A stretch of DNA of 64,000 nt, from positions 1-64,000 of the forward strand of contig DAIDIP010000016.1 of assembly GCA_027451745.1 (NCBI GenBank), given 5' to 3'. The notes beneath the pieces were generated by a model. That model was not told where the DNA came from. It did no database searches and worked only from the letters and a program-made list of their open reading frames with translations. The translations under genes and the position numbers were made by a program. The first letter of the stretch is position 1. Each line of letters starts with the position of its first letter. Below are positions 10,175 through 46,463 of the stretch, in pieces. This DNA is from Candidatus Melainabacteria bacterium. GTDB lineage: Bacteria > Cyanobacteriota > Vampirovibrionia > Obscuribacterales > Obscuribacteraceae.

Positions 10175-10293
10175 AAGAGCCAAAGTAATTTTTCAAAACA
10201 AGCCAAAAACCTAGTAAGTTGATTTTAAATAAGACCAGCAACTAGTACTTTATACCCATACATTTTGATTTCTACAATGTTATTATTAATATA

Positions 10294-11094
10294 TTGCCTC
10301 ACAAATTTAAGTTAAGGACAGTCTCATCTTTGACTAATAGCATATTCCGATCCGCATCAGTAATTTTGCCAGTCATGGATGAAACCATTTCGCTAACTAA
10401 AACTGTTGAAATAGTTCTTCGAGACTGCTCATCTGACATCCATGAATTCATAATAGCAGTTGGCGATCGTACACTCCCTGCAAGTATGGCAACCATTGAA
10501 GAATTAAAACAACGTTTTCCCAACCTGATTACTGTCCACCATCAGAAATTACCCTTTGCTGGGGGAGCCATACGAGAAGCCTTTGCTTTAGCTCGTGGCA
10601 GCCATACAATACTTTTAGCTAGCGATCTTGAAACAGATCCCAACGACACCTATAAACTAATAGCCGAAGCAAAAAAATACCCCGAAGCAATAGTCGCTAC
10701 TTCACGTTGGTTGCAAGCAAATAGTTTTAATGGTTATAACCAAATTAAATTATTTGCAAACTGGATTTTCCAGAAGTTTTTTTCTACCCTCTATGGCGTA
10801 ACTCTTACCGATATGACTTTCGGATATCGCTTGTTCCCGACCAAATTAATTCAAGCTATAAACTGGGAAGAGGTGCGACACCCATTTTTCTTCGAAACTA
10901 TTATTAAACCTATCCGGTTAGGCATCCAGGTTATTGAAGTACCTACAACCTGGGGCGCAAGAATTGAAGGAGAATCGCATAATAGCTTTTTTCGCAATTT
11001 TGAATATTTTCCGATCGGCTTTAAAGTAAGATTCGCTCAGGCGAATTCACTACTCAAACCAAATATCGATCCAAAAAAAATCACACATAACTAG
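10294..11094 (+). CDS. Family 2 glycosyltransferase
   Basis: 266 residues with a GT-A fold pattern: SVILPVMDET at the nucleotide-binding start, GAIREAFALARG near residue 90, then LLASDLETDP at the metal/nucleotide position, and TDMTFGYRLFP in the acceptor region. It is probably a cytoplasmic glycosyltransferase of the polyprenol-phosphate or polysaccharide type. The start is uncertain: TTG 10294 has no ribosome site, while TTG 10330 has AAGGA 11 bases upstream and would give 254 residues. It is transcribed divergently from the nucleotidyltransferase operon and precedes the STELLO-like gene on the same strand. The substrate is unknown. Confidence 0.8.
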   Translation: MPHKFKLRTVSSLTNSIFRSASVILPVMDETISLTKTVEIVLRDCSSDIHEFIIAVGDRTLPASMATIEELKQRFPNLITVHHQKLPFAGGAIREAFALARGSHTILLASDLETDPNDTYKLIAEAKKYPEAIVATSRWLQANSFNGYNQIKLFANWIFQKFFSTLYGVTLTDMTFGYRLFPTKLIQAINWEEVRHPFFFETIIKPIRLGIQVIEVPTTWGARIEGESHNSFFRNFEYFPIGFKVRFAQANSLLKPNIDPKKITHN

Positions 11095-31920: not shown

Positions 31921-32009
31921 AGCGAAGGACGACCATTTTTCGGCATCCGCAGCGTAACGTAGATACGCGCGTTGAGGCGAGGCACGAAGCCGAAGCAGCG
32001 CCTATAATT
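31921..32009 (+). repeat. Interspersed repeat, copy B
   Basis: Starts directly after the guaA stop codon. It contains ATACGCGCGTTGAGGCGAGG (31963-31982) and the 3' end GCCGAAGCAGCGC, identical to copies E and F in that part. The T-rich TATAATTT at its 3' end leads straight into the tRNA-Gly fragment. Confidence 0.75.
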
Positions 32010-32049
32010 TCCCAAGCTATAAGTTGCGAGTTCGAGACTCCTCACCCGC
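32004..32049 (+). pseudogene. 3' fragment of tRNA-Gly(CCC)
   Basis: From the anticodon loop TTCCCAA (32008-32014... to 32019) through variable region, T-arm GAGTTCGAGACTC and the acceptor half CACCCGC (32043-32049), the bases follow the 3' half of bacterial tRNA-Gly with anticodon CCC in the right order and spacing. The matching 5' acceptor GCGGGTG and the D-arm are missing; the repeat occupies that place. T-stem pairing is partly lost. No CCA is encoded. The pattern suggests a tRNA half left by an integration or recombination event. It is not a functional tRNA. Confidence 0.5.
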
Positions 32050-32634
32050 TTTGTTTTCAGACATTTGACCATACGGCAAGTAAGGCATAGGTAACGGTTT
32101 TAGCTTCTTGAATAGTTGAAACGTATTGCCACCATGAGCAGTAAATCAAATAATCATCAACCAAACGATTGCCGTTTGTCCGCTTCCTGATAGACAAACA
32201 GCAATCTATATTACCACCAGCCGGCTCTCCATCGCACTTGTTCGGTAACTGCTTATAATTCTATCCTTCAAACAATTTAAAGCAAAATAAAAAGCACTAA
32301 GCAATGTCCAGTTTATCCTTGGTAATGCAATCAGTCGCCCAATTATTTTGGAATTGTTTTGATCTTGGAAAGCAATTCTTTCCCACGACTCACACAGCGA
32401 CACGGGCAGTCCCACACAACAGGAGGAAATTTACGAGATAATTCTAAAATTCAGATAGTTGACAAATACTAAAATTGTTTTGCAACAATTTAAAAGTTGG
32501 CAGCTTATGTTTTTACTCAGTCACCCCCTGTGGTATCAGCATAGGCAAGTGAGATTTTGGGGAAAATTATCAGTTAGCGAAATTAGTGTAGATTAGTTGT
32601 CAGTCAGATAAACTCATAATAATATTTTCGAGAT
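32050..32634. other. Gene-free left flank of island
   Basis: 585 bases without a supported gene. Short reading frames here on both strands have no ribosome sites or recognisable composition. The stretch contains the hairpin at 32167-32206 and AT-rich sequence before the HipA-like gene (a likely promoter region, with GGCAGCTTATG-type patches but no clear -35/-10 pair). Confidence 0.5.
32167..32206. repeat. Imperfect inverted repeat (14-bp arms)
   Basis: GATTGCCGTTTGTC (32167-32180) and GACAAACAGCAATC (32193-32206) pair with one G-U-type mismatch around a 12-base loop. No T tract follows on either strand, so it is not a simple terminator. It may be a recombination or RNA-structure element at the edge of the island. 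Confidence 0.5.
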
Positions 32635-33399
32635 TTGACAAGCAATTTTAAAATGGCACCTAATAAGTTTTACCGAATAGCTAGAATAACAAAACCTGTC
32701 GGAAAGGGAGCCACAGGAAGCGTGTTTGTTGATCTTAGTGCCATAGCCAAAACAAACCAGATTGTTCCGTATTGTGTTCCCAACGAGTACATTGCAGCCA
32801 AGCTAGGTGATTTTATAGGATTACCAGTACCACCGGCTGGATTAATTGCTCAGTCATCTACCAGTGAAATCTGGTTTTGTTCCTTGGATTTTAATTTTAC
32901 GGGTAATAGTTTGCCGCCTATCGATGATGAGAAGTGCATTAAGCTGTTGCCAAGGGAGTCAACAGGAGTTATATTATTTGATGTGTTGATTGGCAATCCA
33001 GATCGGCACAGGGAAAATATATCTCTCGACGACAGTTCCCAACCGGCGCGTCTATCATTATTCGATCACAGCCATGCACTCTTAGGGGATACCGCCGGGG
33101 AAGCTACTGCCAGGTTAGTTTCGATAAAAAGCACTCTAGGCATCTCAGGACACTGCCTTTTGGGTAAAATACAAACAGGTGATTATCTTCAATACTGGGT
33201 TAATAAAATAACTGAGATTCCAGACTTTTTTATAGATGACATTTGTAAAGAAGTAGAAGGCTTAGGGGCAAATTCGAAAGAACTTGATGAAGTCAAAACA
33301 TTTTTAAAAAACCGTCGAGACAATTTCATACAACTACTTAATCATCACCAAATTGAGTTTTCGGGGATAAAACAATGGCCAATCTTAAAGAACCAATGA
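32635..33399 (+). CDS. HipA_2-type kinase-like protein
   Basis: 254 residues. Kinase-fold signs typical of HipA-like proteins are a GKGATGSVFVD nucleotide loop near residue 22, the catalytic loop NPDRHREN (121-128) and LSLFDHSHAL (140-149) with the metal-binding Asp144. It is shorter than classical HipA and matches the HipA_2 family. No HipB antitoxin is next to it. The start is uncertain: TTG 32635 or ATG 32653, both with weak ribosome sites. The end overlaps the DUF3037 gene by 25 bases, so the two are translationally coupled. HipA_2 and DUF3037 occur as neighbours in many genomes; their role is not established. Confidence 0.75.
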   Translation: MTSNFKMAPNKFYRIARITKPVGKGATGSVFVDLSAIAKTNQIVPYCVPNEYIAAKLGDFIGLPVPPAGLIAQSSTSEIWFCSLDFNFTGNSLPPIDDEKCIKLLPRESTGVILFDVLIGNPDRHRENISLDDSSQPARLSLFDHSHALLGDTAGEATARLVSIKSTLGISGHCLLGKIQTGDYLQYWVNKITEIPDFFIDDICKEVEGLGANSKELDEVKTFLKNRRDNFIQLLNHHQIEFSGIKQWPILKNQ

Positions 33400-34268
33400 C
33401 ACCCAGATATTTATTAGCTAAATACATCCCAGACATGGCTAGATATGAGCCAAAAAATATTGGTGTTATCGTTTGGTCACCTTACGGCATTAAATGCCGC
33501 TTTCTGGCAGAAAAACCACTTAACCCCAGCAATATAGATGGGCGCAGTATACCTCCATTCGTCACCAATTCTTACGCTTATAGACAATGGATTACCTTTT
33601 GGACCAAGGAAGCCAGTAAATCGGTTATAGAACCAGTATGTGGCGGAGAGCCTGTTTCATCGAGTAGTCCGCACATGATGGATGTGTTAAGACAAACGAG
33701 TAAAGATAATTTCGTTTTAGAAGAGGGTGGTTATCTTCTGGACGCTATCGGGCAAGAGGATATTCAACATTTTGTTGATTACTTATTTGATACTCTTGTA
33801 AATCAGTCCGAGCCAGAGGAACCTAAAGATCCAACCCTAAATGAAATATCGGAAGATGTTATCGCAAAGTCAAACATCCGCTCTACTCCCTATTTCCATG
33901 ACGATTACCCGTTAAAATTGGAGATAGACAGCGTTGAAGATATAGCAAAATTTAGTCATGTCTACCAAAACGGCAAAGTAAGCGTTGTACAAAAGATAGC
34001 CATATCAAAGCTATTGGATAAGAACGTTCATAGCGCTGCCTGGCAATTTGAAAAAGTACGAGAAGCTAAGTTGGTTAAAAAGACCGAGGACATGCTGGCA
34101 CTCATTTATGCCACACCTGAGCAACAAGCCGATACTCGAACCAATCAATTATTGCGTGTTCTTGGATCTGTCGCGCCAGTAATAAATCTCTATACCCAAC
34201 GAGAAGACTTTGAACACTGGTTAAGGGCACTCTATAAAATGAGTCAAAAAGGAAAACAGCGTAGCTAA
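33375..34268 (+). CDS. DUF3037-family protein
   Basis: 297 residues, soluble. The N-terminus (PRYLLAKYIPDMARYEPKNIGVIVWSP) matches DUF3037, whose members start with a Y-hydrophobic-VPD-R-E-NIGVV pattern; the rest is mostly helical and has no motif I recognise. Its ATG sits inside the HipA_2 gene with GGGAT about eight bases upstream, so production in step with the kinase is likely. It may be a substrate, partner or regulator of HipA_2 (inference from conserved pairing). Confidence 0.7.
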   Translation: MANLKEPMTPRYLLAKYIPDMARYEPKNIGVIVWSPYGIKCRFLAEKPLNPSNIDGRSIPPFVTNSYAYRQWITFWTKEASKSVIEPVCGGEPVSSSSPHMMDVLRQTSKDNFVLEEGGYLLDAIGQEDIQHFVDYLFDTLVNQSEPEEPKDPTLNEISEDVIAKSNIRSTPYFHDDYPLKLEIDSVEDIAKFSHVYQNGKVSVVQKIAISKLLDKNVHSAAWQFEKVREAKLVKKTEDMLALIYATPEQQADTRTNQLLRVLGSVAPVINLYTQREDFEHWLRALYKMSQKGKQRS

Positions 34269-34374
34269 GCCACTTCCTATGAAATTCAAATTGGCGAGTT
34301 AACTTAAGAGAACCTTATATTATGGTACAAAAAACGGCATATCGTACCCTTCACCATTTTGATATTAAACCGTA

Positions 34375-35112
34375 ATGGATAAACATTGGATCATTTCTGA
34401 AATTAGACGTACCGCCTCAGAAAATGATGGTGTCCCTTTAGGAGTTAAGAAGTTCCAAAAAATTACTGGTATCAGTACAAATAGGTTTTTGGGTAAGTAT
34501 TGGCGCACCTGGGCGGAAGCCTTGAATGAGGCGGGTTTTTCGGAAAATAAATTCAATACTGGCCGTGACATAGATTTTTTGCTAGTTTGCTTAGCAAAAC
34601 TGACGCGAACTTTGCGCAGATTTCCCGCAGCAGTAGATATAAAGCTAGCGAGAAGAGATGACAGTGCATTTCCTTCGGTCGATAGTTTTGATCGCCGCTT
34701 GGGTACACAATCCAGAAAAATTGGGCTCATCAAAAAATACGTCACCGAGCATGAAGAATATGCTGACATTCTTGAGCTCCTACCGCAAGGTAAAAATGCG
34801 GGAGATACTTTTGATCAATACCCAGATACAAATGTGAAAACGAAAGATGGCTTCGTGTATCTAGGAATGTTGAAGATTGATACCAAGAAACGCTATAAAA
34901 TTGGCAAGACTAACTTTGTAGAACGAAGACATTCAGAACTATCGTTTCAGCTCCCAGAAAAATTAGAGCTGGTCCACTACATTAGAACTGATGACATGAC
35001 CGGAATTGAGTCATATTGGCATAAACGCTTTGCTGATAAGAATACCAATGGTGAATGGTTCGACTTGTCGAGTGATGAAGTACGTGCTTTTAAGCTCAGA
35101 AAGTTTATGTAA
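34375..35112 (+). CDS. GIY-YIG (T5orf172/MUG113) protein with HNH-associated repeats
   Basis: 245 residues. The N-terminal 130 residues contain two helical modules like the HNH/homing-endonuclease-associated repeats (FLGKYWRTWAEALNEAGF; SVDSFDRRLG). The C-terminal half (about 158-240) is a GIY-YIG nuclease-like domain: GFVYLG, RYKIGKT, VERRH and the catalytic-type Glu in GIESYWHKRF, ending GEWFDLS. Such proteins are linked to mobile DNA and phage. It starts at ATG 34375, 106 bases after DUF3037, and is probably part of the same island. DNA-binding or cleavage is inferred from the fold. Confidence 0.75.
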   Translation: MDKHWIISEIRRTASENDGVPLGVKKFQKITGISTNRFLGKYWRTWAEALNEAGFSENKFNTGRDIDFLLVCLAKLTRTLRRFPAAVDIKLARRDDSAFPSVDSFDRRLGTQSRKIGLIKKYVTEHEEYADILELLPQGKNAGDTFDQYPDTNVKTKDGFVYLGMLKIDTKKRYKIGKTNFVERRHSELSFQLPEKLELVHYIRTDDMTGIESYWHKRFADKNTNGEWFDLSSDEVRAFKLRKFM

Positions 35113-35250
35113 TGCCCGGCTTCCGATTTCGGAAAAAATCAATCCATGCCATTAAAACCACCAGGATCTCCATATCGCCAGAACCTGCACCAATAGCGCA
35201 TTTTATAACATAGAGAAACCTTGGGAAAAACTCAGAAAATACTGGTGTAA

Positions 35251-36543
35251 TTATTTCACTGGCTTTAATTCTTTTATAATCCGTTGCACTTCTAACACCA
35301 AACGAATATAAAACCAGATCAATATTGTTATCAGTATTGGCGAAGCAATGTTTTTTATATTATTGAATCCAAAAACAATTAAGTACAAATCAATAAATAA
35401 CCAAGTCGCTACCAGGTCTCTAATTAGCTTCTTATTTGCATTAAAAATCGGGCTGCCAAAAATTAGCATTCCGCCTATTACTAAAACACTTAGATCATAA
35501 AAGAGCAGATGTCTAGATACCATCGGTAAAACAAAAATTCCCAAAACAAAGGGAACTACAATCTTATTTTTATTATCAGCGCCTTTGGCTAATTGTTTGC
35601 AAATAAACAAAGCATGAATCGCAATAATCATAACAAGCAAATAGACCGCGATTTGTAGAACCGCTTTATGGTCAGCAGGTAGTCTTTCTAATACTGCCAT
35701 AGGCCAAGAACTCACCATATAACTTCCTTTGGTGTAAAGATAATCTTCCAGTATTGCTCCTTGCATCAAAGAGGAGATCCAATTCTGGCATATCGAAGGG
35801 CCCAAACAAAAAATATTGCCTAGCAGCAAACCAACCATGCCAATGATAAAACCAATAATATTGATCCAATGCTTGGTCATCAGTTGATAAGCGATCAATA
35901 ACAATACAACAGGCAAAAATTGCGGCTTAAGAAAAATAAGCGACCATGCGAGTCCTCCTGCAAATGGATGTCCTTTCATCAACATGAAATATCCTGCCGA
36001 TAAAGGTAAAAGAACAAAAACCAAATCTAATTGTCCAGCAAAAAAGTGCTGAAAAATAGGAGCATACAAAAGACTCATACAAAAATAAGTGTTCCATCTT
36101 TGCTTAATTGTACTGGCAATAAATACACAAGATAATAAAAGGGCGAAGATAGAAAGCATTTGCCAAAAGATATATGCAGCATGCGGCGACAAACAACTAA
36201 GTGGTTGAGTAGCAAATGCTACCAGAGGTGGATACAAGAAAATTGTTCTAGCACACTGAGGCATATGAGGTAATTGCTTGTGAGCATAGTCATTAAAGGG
36301 CGACGTTGTTGCGCTTGGCTCTAAATACAATTCACTTGCTTTGCCATCTTTAACCATACTGCCAGCTATATAAATAGATCCAGAAAAATCGGTAGCATGA
36401 ATATTGTCGGGACTAGTTATAGCCGCATATATCAAGAAGAGTAGGACTAAAAATGCCAGGCTCCTCGATAAAAAATCTATTGTCGACAAACGTTTTGGCT
36501 GAGCTGTCGCAAGACTTTCATTATTTTTATTCTCTGACATCAT
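35251..36543 (-). CDS. GT87-type membrane glycosyltransferase
   Basis: 430 residues, about ten membrane helices. GT-C signs: TDFSGS near residue 53 with the loop Asp, FLYPPLV near 107, a GQLD turn, and the LKPQF motif near 210. It should use a lipid-linked sugar on the outer face of the membrane. It shares about the same plan with the adjacent upstream gene, and both seem to derive from a duplication (FLYPP, GQ-DLV-VLLPLS-GYF and LKPQF recur). It is last in the minus-strand operon that starts at 39967. ATG is 14 bases from the preceding stop. Confidence 0.78.
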   Translation of the reverse strand: MMSENKNNESLATAQPKRLSTIDFLSRSLAFLVLLFLIYAAITSPDNIHATDFSGSIYIAGSMVKDGKASELYLEPSATTSPFNDYAHKQLPHMPQCARTIFLYPPLVAFATQPLSCLSPHAAYIFWQMLSIFALLLSCVFIASTIKQRWNTYFCMSLLYAPIFQHFFAGQLDLVFVLLPLSAGYFMLMKGHPFAGGLAWSLIFLKPQFLPVVLLLIAYQLMTKHWINIIGFIIGMVGLLLGNIFCLGPSICQNWISSLMQGAILEDYLYTKGSYMVSSWPMAVLERLPADHKAVLQIAVYLLVMIIAIHALFICKQLAKGADNKNKIVVPFVLGIFVLPMVSRHLLFYDLSVLVIGGMLIFGSPIFNANKKLIRDLVATWLFIDLYLIVFGFNNIKNIASPILITILIWFYIRLVLEVQRIIKELKPVK

Positions 36544-36557
36544 GCTTTTCCTGTTAT

Positions 36558-37880
36558 TCAGCCAGCCAAAGACGTTTCTGAGTGATTAGCAAGTTCTTGT
36601 CTGTATTTTTTCACAGTAATAAAAACGCGAATATAAATCCACACTAATAACGCTATCAAGATTCTTGACTGGATAGATGCTGACTTCATAGAAATAAAAC
36701 CTATCATATACAAATCCATCAATATCCAAGCAATAAAAACGTCTGTTATCAACCTTTTATTGGCTCGCAAACTTTTTACGCCAAAAATAAGCATGCCCGC
36801 AAGAGCAAATACACCTAAATCATAAAAAAGTAAATATCGAGCAACAATCGGTAAAATAGCAATTCCTAAAATAAGAATCAAAGGAGCTACACTTTCTTCA
36901 TCTGTTTTTGCCGTTCTAATCAATTGTCTGCATAGAAAGAGGGCCTGCACAAAAAGAACAGTCCCAAAAAAATATACTAATGTGTGCAAAACTGGTTTAA
37001 ACTCAAACGAACTTTGTTCAAAAAGCTTCATCGGTAAAGAGCTAACTAAGTATCTAGAGGCAGGATAAATATTATCTGATAAGACTACATGAGCTCGTAA
37101 AAGCATAAACCATGCCGTTGCAATTTTTGGTCCGAAACAAAAAATGTTGATCACAGCACTTGAAAAAATTCCGATAGTAAAACCATAAAGTGCCTTTAGC
37201 CTTCCTGATATCGCATAGGAACCAATAAAAAGAAAAATGACTGGAAAAAATTGTGGTTTCAGTGACAGTATCGACCAGACTAAACCTGCCAATATTGCCT
37301 TCTTTCTTTGAAAAAGAAAATATCCAAAGGACAACGGTAAAAGAACCATAACTAAATCCATTTGTCCTTCGAAAAGCAAATGAAACACAGGTCCAAAAAG
37401 AATGCTCAAAAAAAAGAACGAGTCCCAGTGCTTATTAGTCGTTTTGGATATGAAAATTGTTGAAAGCAAAAGAGCGAATACACAAAAGCTCTGCCAAATT
37501 ACAAAAGCTGTGCGCAATGGGAAACAAGCGAAGAATTTTGCCATTAAAGCTATAAACGGTGGATAAAGAAAAGCAGTAGTGCTTGTCACAGGCATAAGTT
37601 CCAAGCACCTATGCGTATATAGATTAAAGGCAGAATTATCAAAATTGTTCTTACTCGGGTTGAGATAAAGTTCAGTAACTTTACCATCTTCAACCATACG
37701 TCCTGCGCTATAAGTAACATTCGCAAAATCCGTCTTCCATAATTGACCAGAGAAATTGATTGACGCATAAGCTAAAAACGCCAAAAGCAAAATGGATAAT
37801 ATACGTGTGAAAAAAAATAATTTTCGAGCCGCAAAACTATTTGCTAATTCAGAAAATCCAATTTTCGACATATGCTTCAT
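36558..37880 (-). CDS. GT87-type membrane glycosyltransferase
   Basis: 440 residues, paralogue of the next gene downstream. Motifs are TDFANV (loop Asp), FLYPPFI, GQMDLVMVLLPLSFGYF and LKPQFFPV, in the order seen in GT87 proteins. Two tandem enzymes could add two successive sugars or act on different acceptors. The N-terminal 20 residues are cytoplasmic and mildly basic. It is 30 bases downstream of the DUF362 gene in the operon. Donor (polyprenyl-phosphate sugar) is inferred from the family, not seen. Confidence 0.78.
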   Translation of the reverse strand: MKHMSKIGFSELANSFAARKLFFFTRILSILLLAFLAYASINFSGQLWKTDFANVTYSAGRMVEDGKVTELYLNPSKNNFDNSAFNLYTHRCLELMPVTSTTAFLYPPFIALMAKFFACFPLRTAFVIWQSFCVFALLLSTIFISKTTNKHWDSFFFLSILFGPVFHLLFEGQMDLVMVLLPLSFGYFLFQRKKAILAGLVWSILSLKPQFFPVIFLFIGSYAISGRLKALYGFTIGIFSSAVINIFCFGPKIATAWFMLLRAHVVLSDNIYPASRYLVSSLPMKLFEQSSFEFKPVLHTLVYFFGTVLFVQALFLCRQLIRTAKTDEESVAPLILILGIAILPIVARYLLFYDLGVFALAGMLIFGVKSLRANKRLITDVFIAWILMDLYMIGFISMKSASIQSRILIALLVWIYIRVFITVKKYRQELANHSETSLAG

Positions 37881-37910
37881 CTTTTTTTACACGTTTGTAG
37901 CACAAGTCTA

Positions 37911-41382: not shown

Positions 41383-42339
41383 ATGAATCCATTACGGGCT
41401 CTGGTGTTACAACTATCCAGAATACCAATCGCTTTGTTGTTGGTAATTATTGTCGTCATTGCCGGCGTAATTGCCATAGGTGTAACTGGAATTATTTCCG
41501 AATCACAAAAAACTTATGAGGCTCGCAAAGCTGAACTAGAACAAAAGGCTAATGCCAAGGGCAAAGTCGTATACACAGTACACGACATTGCAGAAGGTCA
41601 GCCCATTCCTGGTGACGCCCTTGAAGAGCGTGAAATCGAGCAGAGCAAAATCCCTCAAGATGCTATTACTTCTGCCAGTTTAGCCACTGGAAGAATTGCT
41701 AAATACGGTATCTTGGCAGGACAAATTGTTTCTCAACACGATTTAGCCCCTCAAGGAATATCGCTTGGTTTTGAGTCCAAACTTAAAGAAGGCATGCGGG
41801 CTATTACTTTTGGTGTTGATAACAATTCTGGCGTAGCTGGATTTATCACTCCTGACAGCCATGTAGATATTATTTCAATGGTTGGTACAGCCGGTGATAC
41901 AAAAGCTTCTCCGATATTATCAGACGTAGAAGTTATTGCAGTAGGTACTACATATCAAAAGAGTCCTGGACAATCGGCTGCAATGCCTTCCAGTTCAATA
42001 ACAGTCTGTGTATCTCCTGAAGATGCTAACAAGCTAATTAAAGCAATTAGCGCTAGCAAACTTTATCTGACACTGAGGAATGACAAAGATCATACTCCAG
42101 TAGCCACAGTGGATGTAACATCCCTGTTCGGTGGTTCTGGCGGAGGATCTGGCGGAAAAGACGACCTGGCTGCTCTACCACCACCAAATTCGTTGCCACC
42201 ACCCCCACTACCAGGCGGTGACGTAGGCGGCGACCTGCCAGGAGCATTAGCTCCAGCGGCCCCACCACCTCCTCCTTTACATGAAGTTGAGATTTGGTCT
42301 GGTTCGAAGAAAGATGTGGTTTCCGTACCCACAAACTAA
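41383..42339 (+). CDS. cpaB: Flp pilus assembly protein CpaB/RcpC
   Basis: 318 residues. One N-terminal membrane helix (about 14-36) is followed by an SAF-type domain (VVYTVHDIAEGQPIPGDALEERE, about 63-125) and the RcpC module up to about 235. The C-terminal 80 residues are rich in Gly and Pro, with runs of Pro, and should be a flexible, surface or wall-spanning part. CpaB stabilises the pilus channel with the secretin in the Tad system. No secretin gene is in the window. Confidence 0.88.
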   Translation: MNPLRALVLQLSRIPIALLLVIIVVIAGVIAIGVTGIISESQKTYEARKAELEQKANAKGKVVYTVHDIAEGQPIPGDALEEREIEQSKIPQDAITSASLATGRIAKYGILAGQIVSQHDLAPQGISLGFESKLKEGMRAITFGVDNNSGVAGFITPDSHVDIISMVGTAGDTKASPILSDVEVIAVGTTYQKSPGQSAAMPSSSITVCVSPEDANKLIKAISASKLYLTLRNDKDHTPVATVDVTSLFGGSGGGSGGKDDLAALPPPNSLPPPPLPGGDVGGDLPGALAPAAPPPPPLHEVEIWSGSKKDVVSVPTN

Positions 42340-42435
42340 AGTAATAGCCCTTTAGTGAACGCAGGGAAGGATTCATCTCCATTCGGCTGGGTACAAAATT
42401 AATAGTTGGCTTAGCGGAGGCTTGGATTTTAAAGC

Positions 42436-43614
42436 ATGAAACTGACTACATTATTAGTTTGTGATGCTGGTTTGGACAAACGACAAACTATTGAAGACTT
42501 GATTCACAGTCAACCTTCTTTAGCCCTCGTAAGCACTGTTTCAGGAAGCATGGCACGAGAACAAATAGGCAGCTTACACCCTAAGCTTGTCTGGATTGAG
42601 CTTAGCCCAGCGCCTGTACGGGGCTTATCCTTACTGGCCGAATTGAGAGAAACCTTTCCTGATGTTTACTTCTTTGTAAGTTACGAAGTTCCGGACCCTG
42701 AGTTGATTCGAACAGCCTATCGTTTAGGCGCTTCAGACTTTCTTGATGCTGAACGTTGGCGAACAGATTTACCAGCTGCAGTTCAGAGTATCCAACTTAA
42801 ACATCAAAGTGAATCAATATCTACAGCTGCTGGTAAAGTGATTGCTACATTTAGTCCTACTGGTGGCATTGGTGTCACTACTATCTGTACAAATTTAGCT
42901 GGTTATTTGGGCAAATATGGTGAAACTTGCATTGTAGATTTAGATTTGCAATTCGGCATGATTTCACAATATCTCAATCTAGAACCCTCTTTTAGCTTAA
43001 GTACAATTGACTTTTCGCATACTAACTTCGATGCCACATATCTGAGAAATTTGATGACCAGATATGATGAGAAATTGAGCATCTTAGCTGCTCCACTTGA
43101 TCTAGAAGATATTGGTGATATTTATGCAGCTCAAGTACAAGAAATTTTGTACACAGCCAAGCAAGAATTTCGCTTCACTTTAGTTGATCTGCCAAAAAAT
43201 CTGCTTGATGAAAGAGCTATTGCTACCTTGGATTTAGCCGATGAAGTATTAGTCATTACTGAATACAACTGGGCAGCAATTGTAAATGCTAGAAAATGCT
43301 TAGATACATTCAAGGCGCATTACAATCAAGAAAAGTTGCTTCTCGTGATTAATCGTTCAGAATGGCAACCGCAAGACGTTTTAAGCGAATGTCGCGCCAG
43401 TTTAAACTATCCTATTTTCCATGAAATCCCCAATGACGTTAAAACCGCCAAATGGGCAAATAATCAAGGACAAATTGCCCCTCCGAAATCAGACTTGGGA
43501 AAATCACTTAATTCCCTCGCTAGAAGATTAGGCGGTGGCGAACAGTTAATGATCACACAAAAAGACACTGAAACATCTCAAGGTTTCAAGTTGCCTGCGT
43601 TTTTCAAACGTTAG
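42436..43614 (+). CDS. tadZ: Flp pilus localisation protein TadZ/CpaE
   Basis: 392 residues. Residues 1-125 are a pseudo-receiver domain (acceptor position has Glu55 in place of Asp), followed by a ParA/MinD-like ATPase (about 135-375): TGGIGVTTI replaces the usual KGGxGKTT so both canonical lysines are missing, a known trait of many TadZ proteins; VDLDLQFG and VDLPK supply the A' and B regions. It marks the pole or site where the Tad pilus is built. ATG 42436 follows cpaB after 96 bases. Followed by two copies of the interspersed repeat. Confidence 0.88.
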   Translation: MKLTTLLVCDAGLDKRQTIEDLIHSQPSLALVSTVSGSMAREQIGSLHPKLVWIELSPAPVRGLSLLAELRETFPDVYFFVSYEVPDPELIRTAYRLGASDFLDAERWRTDLPAAVQSIQLKHQSESISTAAGKVIATFSPTGGIGVTTICTNLAGYLGKYGETCIVDLDLQFGMISQYLNLEPSFSLSTIDFSHTNFDATYLRNLMTRYDEKLSILAAPLDLEDIGDIYAAQVQEILYTAKQEFRFTLVDLPKNLLDERAIATLDLADEVLVITEYNWAAIVNARKCLDTFKAHYNQEKLLLVINRSEWQPQDVLSECRASLNYPIFHEIPNDVKTAKWANNQGQIAPPKSDLGKSLNSLARRLGGGEQLMITQKDTETSQGFKLPAFFKR

Positions 43615-43645
43615 TGGGTGCATAATAGATGAAGGACCAAGAAAT

Positions 43646-43757
43646 GAGATTTAGCAAAACACGGATGGCGAGCAAAGCCTGAACATCCGCTGTGAGACGT
43701 GGATACGCGCGTCGAGCCAAGGATTAAAAAGGCGAGGCAGCGCAAAAACCAAGGAAG
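43646..43757 (+). repeat. Interspersed repeat, copy C
   Basis: Divergent copy in the 256-base gap between tadZ and tadA. It shares the 5' AATGAGAT-TTAGC, GATACGCGCG and the 3' AGGCGAGGCAGCGC with the family. It lies in the same orientation as the pilus genes. Confidence 0.6.
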
Positions 43758-43767
43758 GAATAATAAG

Positions 43768-43862
43768 TGAGACAAGGATGCTGGTGAGGCATCCGCAGGT
43801 GAACGAAGAAGGGTACGCGCGTACGAGCTGAAGGAACTGAAGCGAGGCAGCGCTACAAGAGG
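43768..43862 (+). repeat. Interspersed repeat, copy D
   Basis: Second, adjacent copy before tadA. It has the perfect palindrome GTACGCGCGTAC at 43813-43824 and ends in GAAGCGAGGCAGCGCT. The AAGAGGATA ribosome region of tadA follows directly. Confidence 0.6.
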
Positions 43863-43870
43863 ATAAGCAC

Positions 43871-45508
43871 ATGGGCGACGAGAGAAAAGATCAAAATCTA
43901 CCAGCAAGACCAGCCTCCTCACTGATGGGACAATTGGTGAGACAAAGACAGGGTGCCGATGTTGTTCCTTCGCAAGGACAACAAACCGGGATCGCTGGAC
44001 AACAAGGTTCTACTGGTATGGGAAGTAAAACCGCTGCCCCGCCGCCCGGACAAAGCGGCATGCAACGTCCTGGTGGTCCAGCAACAGGGGTTGCCGGTGG
44101 GAATCGTCCTGGAGCAGCTGTTGAACCAACATCTGGTCCCACACGCGCAGAAATTGAACGCATTGATTCTAAAGAAGATGGTGGCTATGGACATGGTGGT
44201 GCTTCTGAAAATGCTGCTGTAGCTGGGGACCTGGGAGCAAAGTTTTCTGCTAATCAAGGACTTATCCGTGAGCGAGAAAAATTTATTATTGATCAATTGA
44301 GACGTGAGCTTGATACATCTCGTTTAACCAATATATCTGAAGATACTCAAGCTCAAGTAAGAGCTCGTATTCGGGAAATCGTCAACTCTGATCCTGCTCC
44401 TTTGACTATGATGGAAAAGGGTATTCTTTTGCAGAATGTACTTGATGAAGTATTCGGGTTCGGTCCTCTTGGTCCGCTTCTTCGCGATCCAAGCATAGGT
44501 GATATTTGTGTCAATGGTGTAAGCAATATATATGTTGAACGTCATGGGCGCTTAGAAAAAACAGGCGTTGCTTTTGAAAATGAGAAACACTTACGACAAA
44601 CAATAGACAAAATTATTCAACCACTAGGAAGAAGATTGGATGATAACTCGCCAATGGTGGATGCTCGTCTTCCAAACGGTTCACGTGTTAATGCCACAAT
44701 TCCGCCTGTGACTATTGATGGTCCTACCATCACCATCCGATGTTTCGGTGCTAATGCTATGTCGCTTGGTCAATTGGTCGAAAAAGGCGCCATGTCAGTG
44801 CAAATGGCTGAGGTGCTCAAATCATGTGTTAAAGGACGTATTAATTTAATTATTTCTGGAGGTACAGGTTCTGGCAAAACCACTTTGCTCAACGCCTTAT
44901 CTTCACACATAAATCCAAGAGAAAGAATTATCACTATCGAAGACGCGGCTGAATTACGCTTGCAACACGATCACTGGGTACGCATGGAAACAAGGCCTGC
45001 CAATACTGAAGGGAAGGGACAAATTACACAGCGTATGCTTGTTATCAACACACTTCGTATGCGACCAGACCGAATCATCATGGGGGAATGCCGTGGTGAA
45101 GAAGCATTTGATATGTTACAGGCCATGAATACAGGTCACTCAGGTTCAATGACCACAATTCACGCCAACTCTCCTCGTGACTGTACAAAACGTCTTGAGA
45201 ATATGATTTTGATGGGTGGTCTGGATATGCCAGCCAAAGCAGCACGCGAGTTAATCGCTTCAGCTATTCAAGTCATTGTACAAATCAAACGTCTAGAAGA
45301 CGGAACAAGAAGAGTTACCGAAGTATCTGAAATAACTGGGATGGAAGGAGAAACAATAGCAATTAGTACGCTATTCCATTTAGAAAGAGAGGGACGCGAC
45401 GCCCGTGGATTTTTCAAATGTCGTCACGTTGGCTCCGGCTTACCGCCTAAGTTTCTTGAGCAATTAGAACAAGAATCTATACCATTCAAACTCGAATGGT
45501 TGAGGTAA
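43871..45508 (+). CDS. tadA: Flp pilus assembly ATPase TadA/CpaF
   Basis: 545 residues. After a Gly/Gln/Pro-rich disordered N-terminus of about 125 residues, longer than usual, come the secretion-ATPase domains: [19 protein letters not shown], Walker [13 protein letters not shown], the Asp and His boxes ([23 protein letters not shown]) and [14 protein letters not shown]. It drives assembly of Flp pilin from the inner membrane. ATG 43871 has AAGAGG about eight bases upstream. Part of one operon with tadB and tadC. Confidence 0.95.
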
Positions 45509-45530
45509 CCAACAAAACAATAGTTAAATT

Positions 45531-46463
45531 ATGGATACAGTAGGCATATCAATATTCGTCACAATACTTCTGCTTGGGGTAGTAGCAGTCATTGCCGCTC
45601 GTCGCCCATGGGCAGATGATCTAATTCGCCTCGACAAACACAAAAAGGCGATGCGATCAAAATATCATGAAGAAGACGAAGTAAGCATATTCCTTACCCA
45701 ACGTACTAATTATCTAGCCCAAAAACTTGCTCAAGCAGGTTTAGAAGCCAAGTACGATCAAATGAAAGTACAATGGATAGGCGCAACAATCGTAAGCGGA
45801 ATTATCTTCGCTGTTATTGCTTATATGAATATGCCAGAACTAGCAGTCTTAGGCTTCATTTTTGGCTTGGTTCTCGGTGCTGGTGGTTTCGTTGGTTACA
45901 TTGGACATCTTGCACATCTTCGACAACAGAAAGTTACCGAACAATTGCCTCAAGTACTTGAGACGATGGTAAGCTCGTTAAGAGCAGGTTCGCCAGTTAT
46001 AGAAGTGTTTAAAGTATTAGCAGAAACTGCTGTTGATCCAATCCGATCTGAATTTAAGCGTGGTCTTGTTTCACTTCAGCTTGGAAAACCTTTTAGAGAA
46101 GTAATGGGAGAAATGGCTGTACGCATCCATACCCCCGATTTCCGTTTACTCACTGCCGCTATTTTTATAAGTCAAGACGTAGGTGGTAACTTAGCAGAAG
46201 TTGTTGCAACAATTGCTGAGGCTATTCGTGAACGCTTCAAATTGCGCGACTATATGAATGCCTTAACTGCTCAAGGAAAAATGACTGCTCTATTCATCGG
46301 TTCGTTACCTTATGGTATTACCTTCCTCACTTATTTAATTTCACCAGGGTATATTGTTCCGTTCCTTAATCACCCTATAGCACGTATCGTTCTATTTGCG
46401 CTCATCATCTGGGAAAGTATAGGCGCGTGGATCCTCATTAAAATGACCACTTTCGATGTGTAG
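45531..46463 (+). CDS. tadB: Flp pilus assembly protein TadB
   Basis: 310 residues. N-terminal helix, a cytoplasmic portion, two central helices and the T2SS-F (GspF-like) domain (EQLPQVLETMVSSLRAGSPVIEVFKVLAE, VGGNLAEVVATIAEAIRER). TadB is one of the two inner-membrane platform proteins that transmit TadA's work to pilin. It follows tadA after 22 bases. Confidence 0.92.
   Translation: MDTVGISIFVTILLLGVVAVIAARRPWADDLIRLDKHKKAMRSKYHEEDEVSIFLTQRTNYLAQKLAQAGLEAKYDQMKVQWIGATIVSGIIFAVIAYMNMPELAVLGFIFGLVLGAGGFVGYIGHLAHLRQQKVTEQLPQVLETMVSSLRAGSPVIEVFKVLAETAVDPIRSEFKRGLVSLQLGKPFREVMGEMAVRIHTPDFRLLTAAIFISQDVGGNLAEVVATIAEAIRERFKLRDYMNALTAQGKMTALFIGSLPYGITFLTYLISPGYIVPFLNHPIARIVLFALIIWESIGAWILIKMTTFDV

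Follow-up and report, generated by a model that had tools for sequence, protein, structure and literature searches.

Classical HipBA acts in antibiotic tolerance, and the target of classical HipA and HipT is an aminoacyl-tRNA synthetase. A HipA-family kinase can also be paired with a DUF3037-type protein. One such pair, DS-6 (HipAD) of E. coli, was validated as anti-phage by DefensePredictor (PMC13092281; Brenes & Laub 2025 cited there), and its defence is abolished by mutation of a catalytic kinase residue, while its partner is predicted to bind both the kinase and DNA (PMC13092281). In a second system, Retron-Sda1, the HipA/DUF3037 pair (PDC-M66) needs neither the retron RT nor the ncRNA to defend against Bas51; deleting the kinase leads to the loss of Bas51 defence and deleting DUF3037 is toxic (PMC12548924).

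Here we describe a divergent pair in a 64,000-nucleotide stretch of DNA (hereafter the window) from a 3.0 Mb genome of Vampirovibrionia, a lineage that is probably a non-photosynthetic relative of the cyanobacteria. The three genes of the cassette put forward by the original prediction are real open reading frames on the + strand: ORF1 (32635-33399), a HipA-family Ser/Thr kinase of 254 aa; ORF2 (33375-34268), a DUF3037-like partner of 297 aa; and ORF3 (34375-35112), a 245-aa protein described by its Pfam domains as HNH-repeat and GIY-YIG (T5orf172/MUG113). The 25-base overlap reported between ORF1 and ORF2 holds only from the first ATG of ORF2 (33375). The second ATG (33396), which overlaps the kinase stop codon by 4 bases as ATGA, agrees with the start of the ORF2 relatives and coincides with the beginning of the family profile, and from these alignments it is most likely the true start, giving 290 aa. 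The kinase may likewise start at ATG 32653 in place of TTG 32635 (248 aa). As predicted, 106 bases separate ORF2 from ORF3 and no HipB-type gene is present beside the kinase, the neighbours having been checked by ORF list and Pfam. In composition, the cassette does not stand out.

ORF1 scores 25.3 bits against Pfam HipA_2 (E 1.1e-5), which is 1.7 bits under the 27-bit cut-off, so that the HipA_2 label originally given to it stands as a HipA-family assignment by alignment, profile and fold and not as a Pfam match. In hhalign profile comparison with HipAD-type kinases, E is 1.4e-8 for ORF1 alone and 2.7e-15 when the phage relatives are added, and HipT/HipA are the top solved structures for its low-confidence model (pLDDT 52; Foldseek E 4e-4). 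The PADLOC model PDC-M03A matches mainly the short catalytic core and was left out of the classification. The NPDRHREN and FDHSH motifs named earlier are both found in ORF1. Furthermore, in an alignment with 13 HipA-type kinases it keeps K39 (the beta-3 lysine), E51, D123 and N128 (DRHREN) and D144 (FDH), all of which are invariant across the nearer kinase set. Loss of the ATP-binding lysine is ruled out, the 12-residue spacing from K39 to E51 matching that of the Shinella and Photobacterium kinases. As judged from its sequence, ORF1 is probably an active kinase.

ORF2 has no Pfam DUF3037 match at E<=1 (PF11236 is absent genome-wide) and no match to any Pfam, NCBIfam or PADLOC model, PDC-M66B included; in PHROG, we found a weak match to phrog_5137 (E 0.009). 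The earlier DUF3037 label is motif recognition and not a database-level match, and the kinship that it implied is recovered through intermediates only. By blastp, ORF2 matches the gp40 protein of EMsquaredA, a Gordonia phage, with E 3e-14. A profile built through these phage intermediates aligns in register, from the N-terminus and across 197 columns, with the long-form DUF3037 partners found in plasmid HipA-DUF3037 pairs (E 2.3e-6; unrelated control pairs, E 0.72). The direct single-sequence comparison between ORF2 and long-form DUF3037 is weak (E 0.008). An N-terminal motif, E-P/F-x-N-I/V-G, is common to ORF2 and its relatives, and the C-terminal region aligns with the long-form partners; this region has no Pfam match to DUF1829 and its structure model is of low confidence. 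A fold search with the ORF2 model returned no significant PDB match, and its viral fold matches carry little weight at a pLDDT of 58. Through the chain of intermediates, which come from Nocardia, Jiangella, Gordonia temperate phages and an IMG/VR actinophage, ORF2 is homologous to the long-form DUF3037 proteins. Because ORF2 fails the Pfam DUF3037 test, we call the window pair HipAD-like and do not treat it as a formal member.

The original prediction also held that the two genes occur together in other genomes. We found DUF3037 in 8 genomes of a 292-genome phylum sample, and a HipA-type kinase adjoins it at all 8 cyanobacterial loci. Partners of the window type have a HipA-type kinase immediately upstream in 6/6 distinct loci, namely two distinct Gordonia phages, an IMG/VR actinophage, Jiangella anatolica, Nocardia camponoti and N. 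elegans (with L027 as another copy of the N. elegans locus); the Gordonia phages were found through the kinase and the other four loci by partner-only searches. Random DUF3037 neighbourhoods with neither HipA_2 nor mobile elements, set in advance as the outcome that would speak against the prediction, were checked for and are not what we saw at either set of loci. Long-form partners are furthermore found in 20 plasmid records, most of them annotated beside a 'HipA family kinase' and some of the plasmids being conjugative.

One clade of seven loci appears in both the kinase tree and the partner tree (support 100/99 and 97/94). The window and then Jiangella branch first in both, with long branches that leave the exact place of the window unsure. 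Relatives are few, and the window pair shares no more than ~20-25% identity with any of them; a search of 382 genomes of the class turned up its subfamily nowhere else. Scans of viral and genome contigs with ORF1 or ORF2 as single proteins gave no matches, nor did a scan with an alignment of ORF1 and the Gordonia kinases; partner relatives surfaced only by alignments that included the Gordonia partner proteins.

Relatives of the pair are located in the immunity regions of temperate phages, between repressor and integrase, on plasmids and beside AbiE genes; in N. camponoti, AbiE genes are followed by the kinase-partner pair. In the actinophages and the prophage (L021, L022, L023 and L026/L027), a repressor or small operon is followed by the HipA-type kinase, the DUF3037-like partner and an M78-like peptidase, with an adjoining integrase. 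This conserved arrangement is a candidate for a superinfection defence expressed by the lysogen. In Aeromonas caviae, a HipA_2-DUF3037 pair lies directly 3′ of a CI/S24-type repressor (L003, 4221-6574), in a record of 4.9 Mb that is filed as a plasmid.

Comparison with related genomes places the cassette in a larger insertion. The guaA and DUF362 genes, in the same order, are ~420 bp apart in a congener (G109) and ~750 bp apart in another member of the family (G036), while the window has ~6 kb extra between them (about 31.95-37.9 kb), made up of the cassette and two GT87 genes. Because G109 and G036 are without these ~6 kb at the same site, the block (31951-37910) is strain-variable. The mobile module proposed at first is accordingly retained as a variable block, and its extent is revised, the block being wider than the three-gene cassette and including the GT87 genes. 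No flanking repeats resembling element ends were seen around it, and we found no Rfam match in 31.8-35.3 kb, no reverse transcriptase among the flanking ORFs of 27.9-40 kb, and, in a scan of flanking genes, recognised none of phage or defence type. The tRNA-like stretch of 32020-32050 was considered as a possible integration scar and rejected, as it contains no tRNA, has no Rfam match and is unique in the genome.

Just after guaA lies a dispersed GC-rich repeat (31951-32005) with the core ACGCGCGTTGAGVCGAG, which has 10 exact copies in the genome against 0 for the reversed control; at the same place in G109, the repeat with this core forms tandem 111-bp units (L051, about 10205-10483). The guaA-DUF362 gap of G036 contains small pilin-like ORFs, and Flp/tad-type pilus genes are found in the window at 41383-46463 (RcpC/CpaB, CpaE-like, T2SSE and T2SSF).

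ORF1 and ORF2 probably encode a kinase toxin and its antitoxin and together make up a divergent anti-phage module of two genes, of the HipAD (DS-6, PDC-M66) kind, the toxin and antitoxin roles and the defence function being those that we infer from tested relatives. Under this model, phosphorylation of an essential target in the host by the HipA-fold kinase would halt growth or lead to abortive infection, and the DUF3037-like partner, translated from the overlapping ORF, would bind the kinase and restrain it until infection. The validated HipA-DUF3037 systems (PMC13092281, PMC12548924), the phage-immunity, plasmid and AbiE contexts and the variable block support the defence or mobile reading first proposed for the pair; the accompanying view that its role is not known is outdated, since the outline is known from the same tested relatives. 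Points against a HipAD-like reading are the low identity, the long branches, the Pfam and PDC-M66B failures, the low confidence of both structure models and the scanned flanking genes, in which no phage or defence functions were recognised.

Next to this two-gene reading, a three-gene defence system, with the GIY-YIG/HNH-repeat nuclease as the effector under the control of kinase and partner, is very improbable. It would fit the position of ORF3, which follows on the same strand with no + strand terminator-like site in the 106 bp between, and its GIY-YIG domain, which is well over the Pfam cut-off (MUG113 5.4e-16, T5orf172 8.6e-9). The GIY-YIG part of the label given to ORF3 is therefore correct, while HNH_repeat falls below the cut-off in ORF3 itself (17.6 vs 26 bits) and above it in a 39%-identical relative. 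This protein, the one full-length relative among the 30 relatives searched (G003, L029/L030), sits in a different island (L030, 6180-13001) that contains the GIY-YIG/HNH-repeat protein, an ImmA-type peptidase, an XRE regulator, a DUF6119 protein, a ResIII helicase and a serine recombinase and is a possible defence island. There it follows the XRE-ImmA-type regulator pair, in company with the helicase and the recombinase, but no HipA-type kinase adjoins it. Moreover, an ORF3-like protein is absent from every other kinase-partner locus examined, two-gene relatives are enough for defence (PMC13092281, PMC12548924) and the kinase is the effector in the tested members, all of which argues against the suggestion that the GIY-YIG protein plays this part. 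As for a homing endonuclease, ORF3 has the combination of such enzymes, a GIY-YIG domain with DNA-binding HNH repeats, but we saw no insertion within a gene, intron or intein: it stands on its own, with ORF2 on one side and a GT87 gene on the other. Given its absence from the other pair loci and the separate island that houses its full-length relative, ORF3 is probably independent island cargo and not a third component.

Two further explanations concern the pair itself. Classical HipBA acts in antibiotic tolerance, and the same kinase-antitoxin mechanism could have been selected here for its own maintenance, for stress tolerance or persistence, or for island stabilisation, and not for phage defence. 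The position of the pair in a block that varies between strains, near which no defence genes were recognised, and the plasmids that carry relatives, conjugative ones included, are compatible with such a role; we regard it as unlikely all the same, given that tested HipA-DUF3037 pairs protect against phage (PMC13092281, PMC12548924) and that the phage-borne relatives occupy the immunity region. Alternatively, the kinase and its partner might regulate lysogeny or host physiology, for example with a repressor as substrate, and the window copy might be an ancient prophage remnant. In its favour, Gordonia phage ZiggyZoo, the IMG/VR actinophage, the Nocardia elegans prophage and the Aeromonas element have a repressor-like gene directly before the kinase. 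In the window, however, neither a repressor or integrase nor a structural gene of a phage was recognised among the scanned flanking genes, and several plasmid copies are without an annotated adjoining repressor gene, so that we give this explanation hardly any weight.

Returning to the HipAD-like anti-phage module, a more far-reaching version of it would make the window and actinophage pairs a distinct, unrecognised HipA-DUF3037 branch that is missed by the Pfam and PADLOC partner models, that serves temperate phages as a superinfection defence in the immunity region, and that was captured by a non-photosynthetic cyanobacterial lineage with the GIY-YIG nuclease as an added effector. We put this forward as speculation with a slim chance of being right in full. 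HipA-DUF3037 defence probably does extend beyond the current models, as partners of 20-25% identity escape Pfam and PADLOC and such divergent partners still accompany the kinase in different phyla and in temperate phages. Alignment of the family provides a profile for finding further members, and the Gordonia phage pairs, whose host can be cultured, open the function to direct testing.

Compared with the described systems, ORF1 shares the HipA/HipT kinase fold with HipBA and HipBST, while the cassette differs from HipBA in having no HipB helix-turn-helix antitoxin beside the kinase and from HipBST in lacking the hipB-hipS-hipT three-gene set, with no HipS in the cassette. PDC-M66/Retron-Sda1 has the same two-gene arrangement, from which the window pair departs in having no adjoining reverse transcriptase and no PDC-M66B match for ORF2. 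With HipAD/DS-6, the pair has in common a HipA-family kinase with kept catalytic residues, a DUF3037-type protein and the absence of HipB, and with the plasmid HipA-DUF3037 pairs, taken as stand-ins for DS-6, it shares gene order, overlap and a partner of ~280 aa. It differs from these stand-ins in its ~20-25% identity, its different clade in both trees, the shortened beta2-beta3 region of its kinase and the failure of Pfam DUF3037 to detect ORF2. The Nocardia and Jiangella pairs and those of the Gordonia phages (EMsquaredA gp41-gp40, ZiggyZoo gp42-gp41) have Actinomycetota hosts and no GIY-YIG gene, the phage copies lying between the repressor region and the integrase; these pairs are the closest relatives of both window proteins, with the same gene order and in a well-supported clade.
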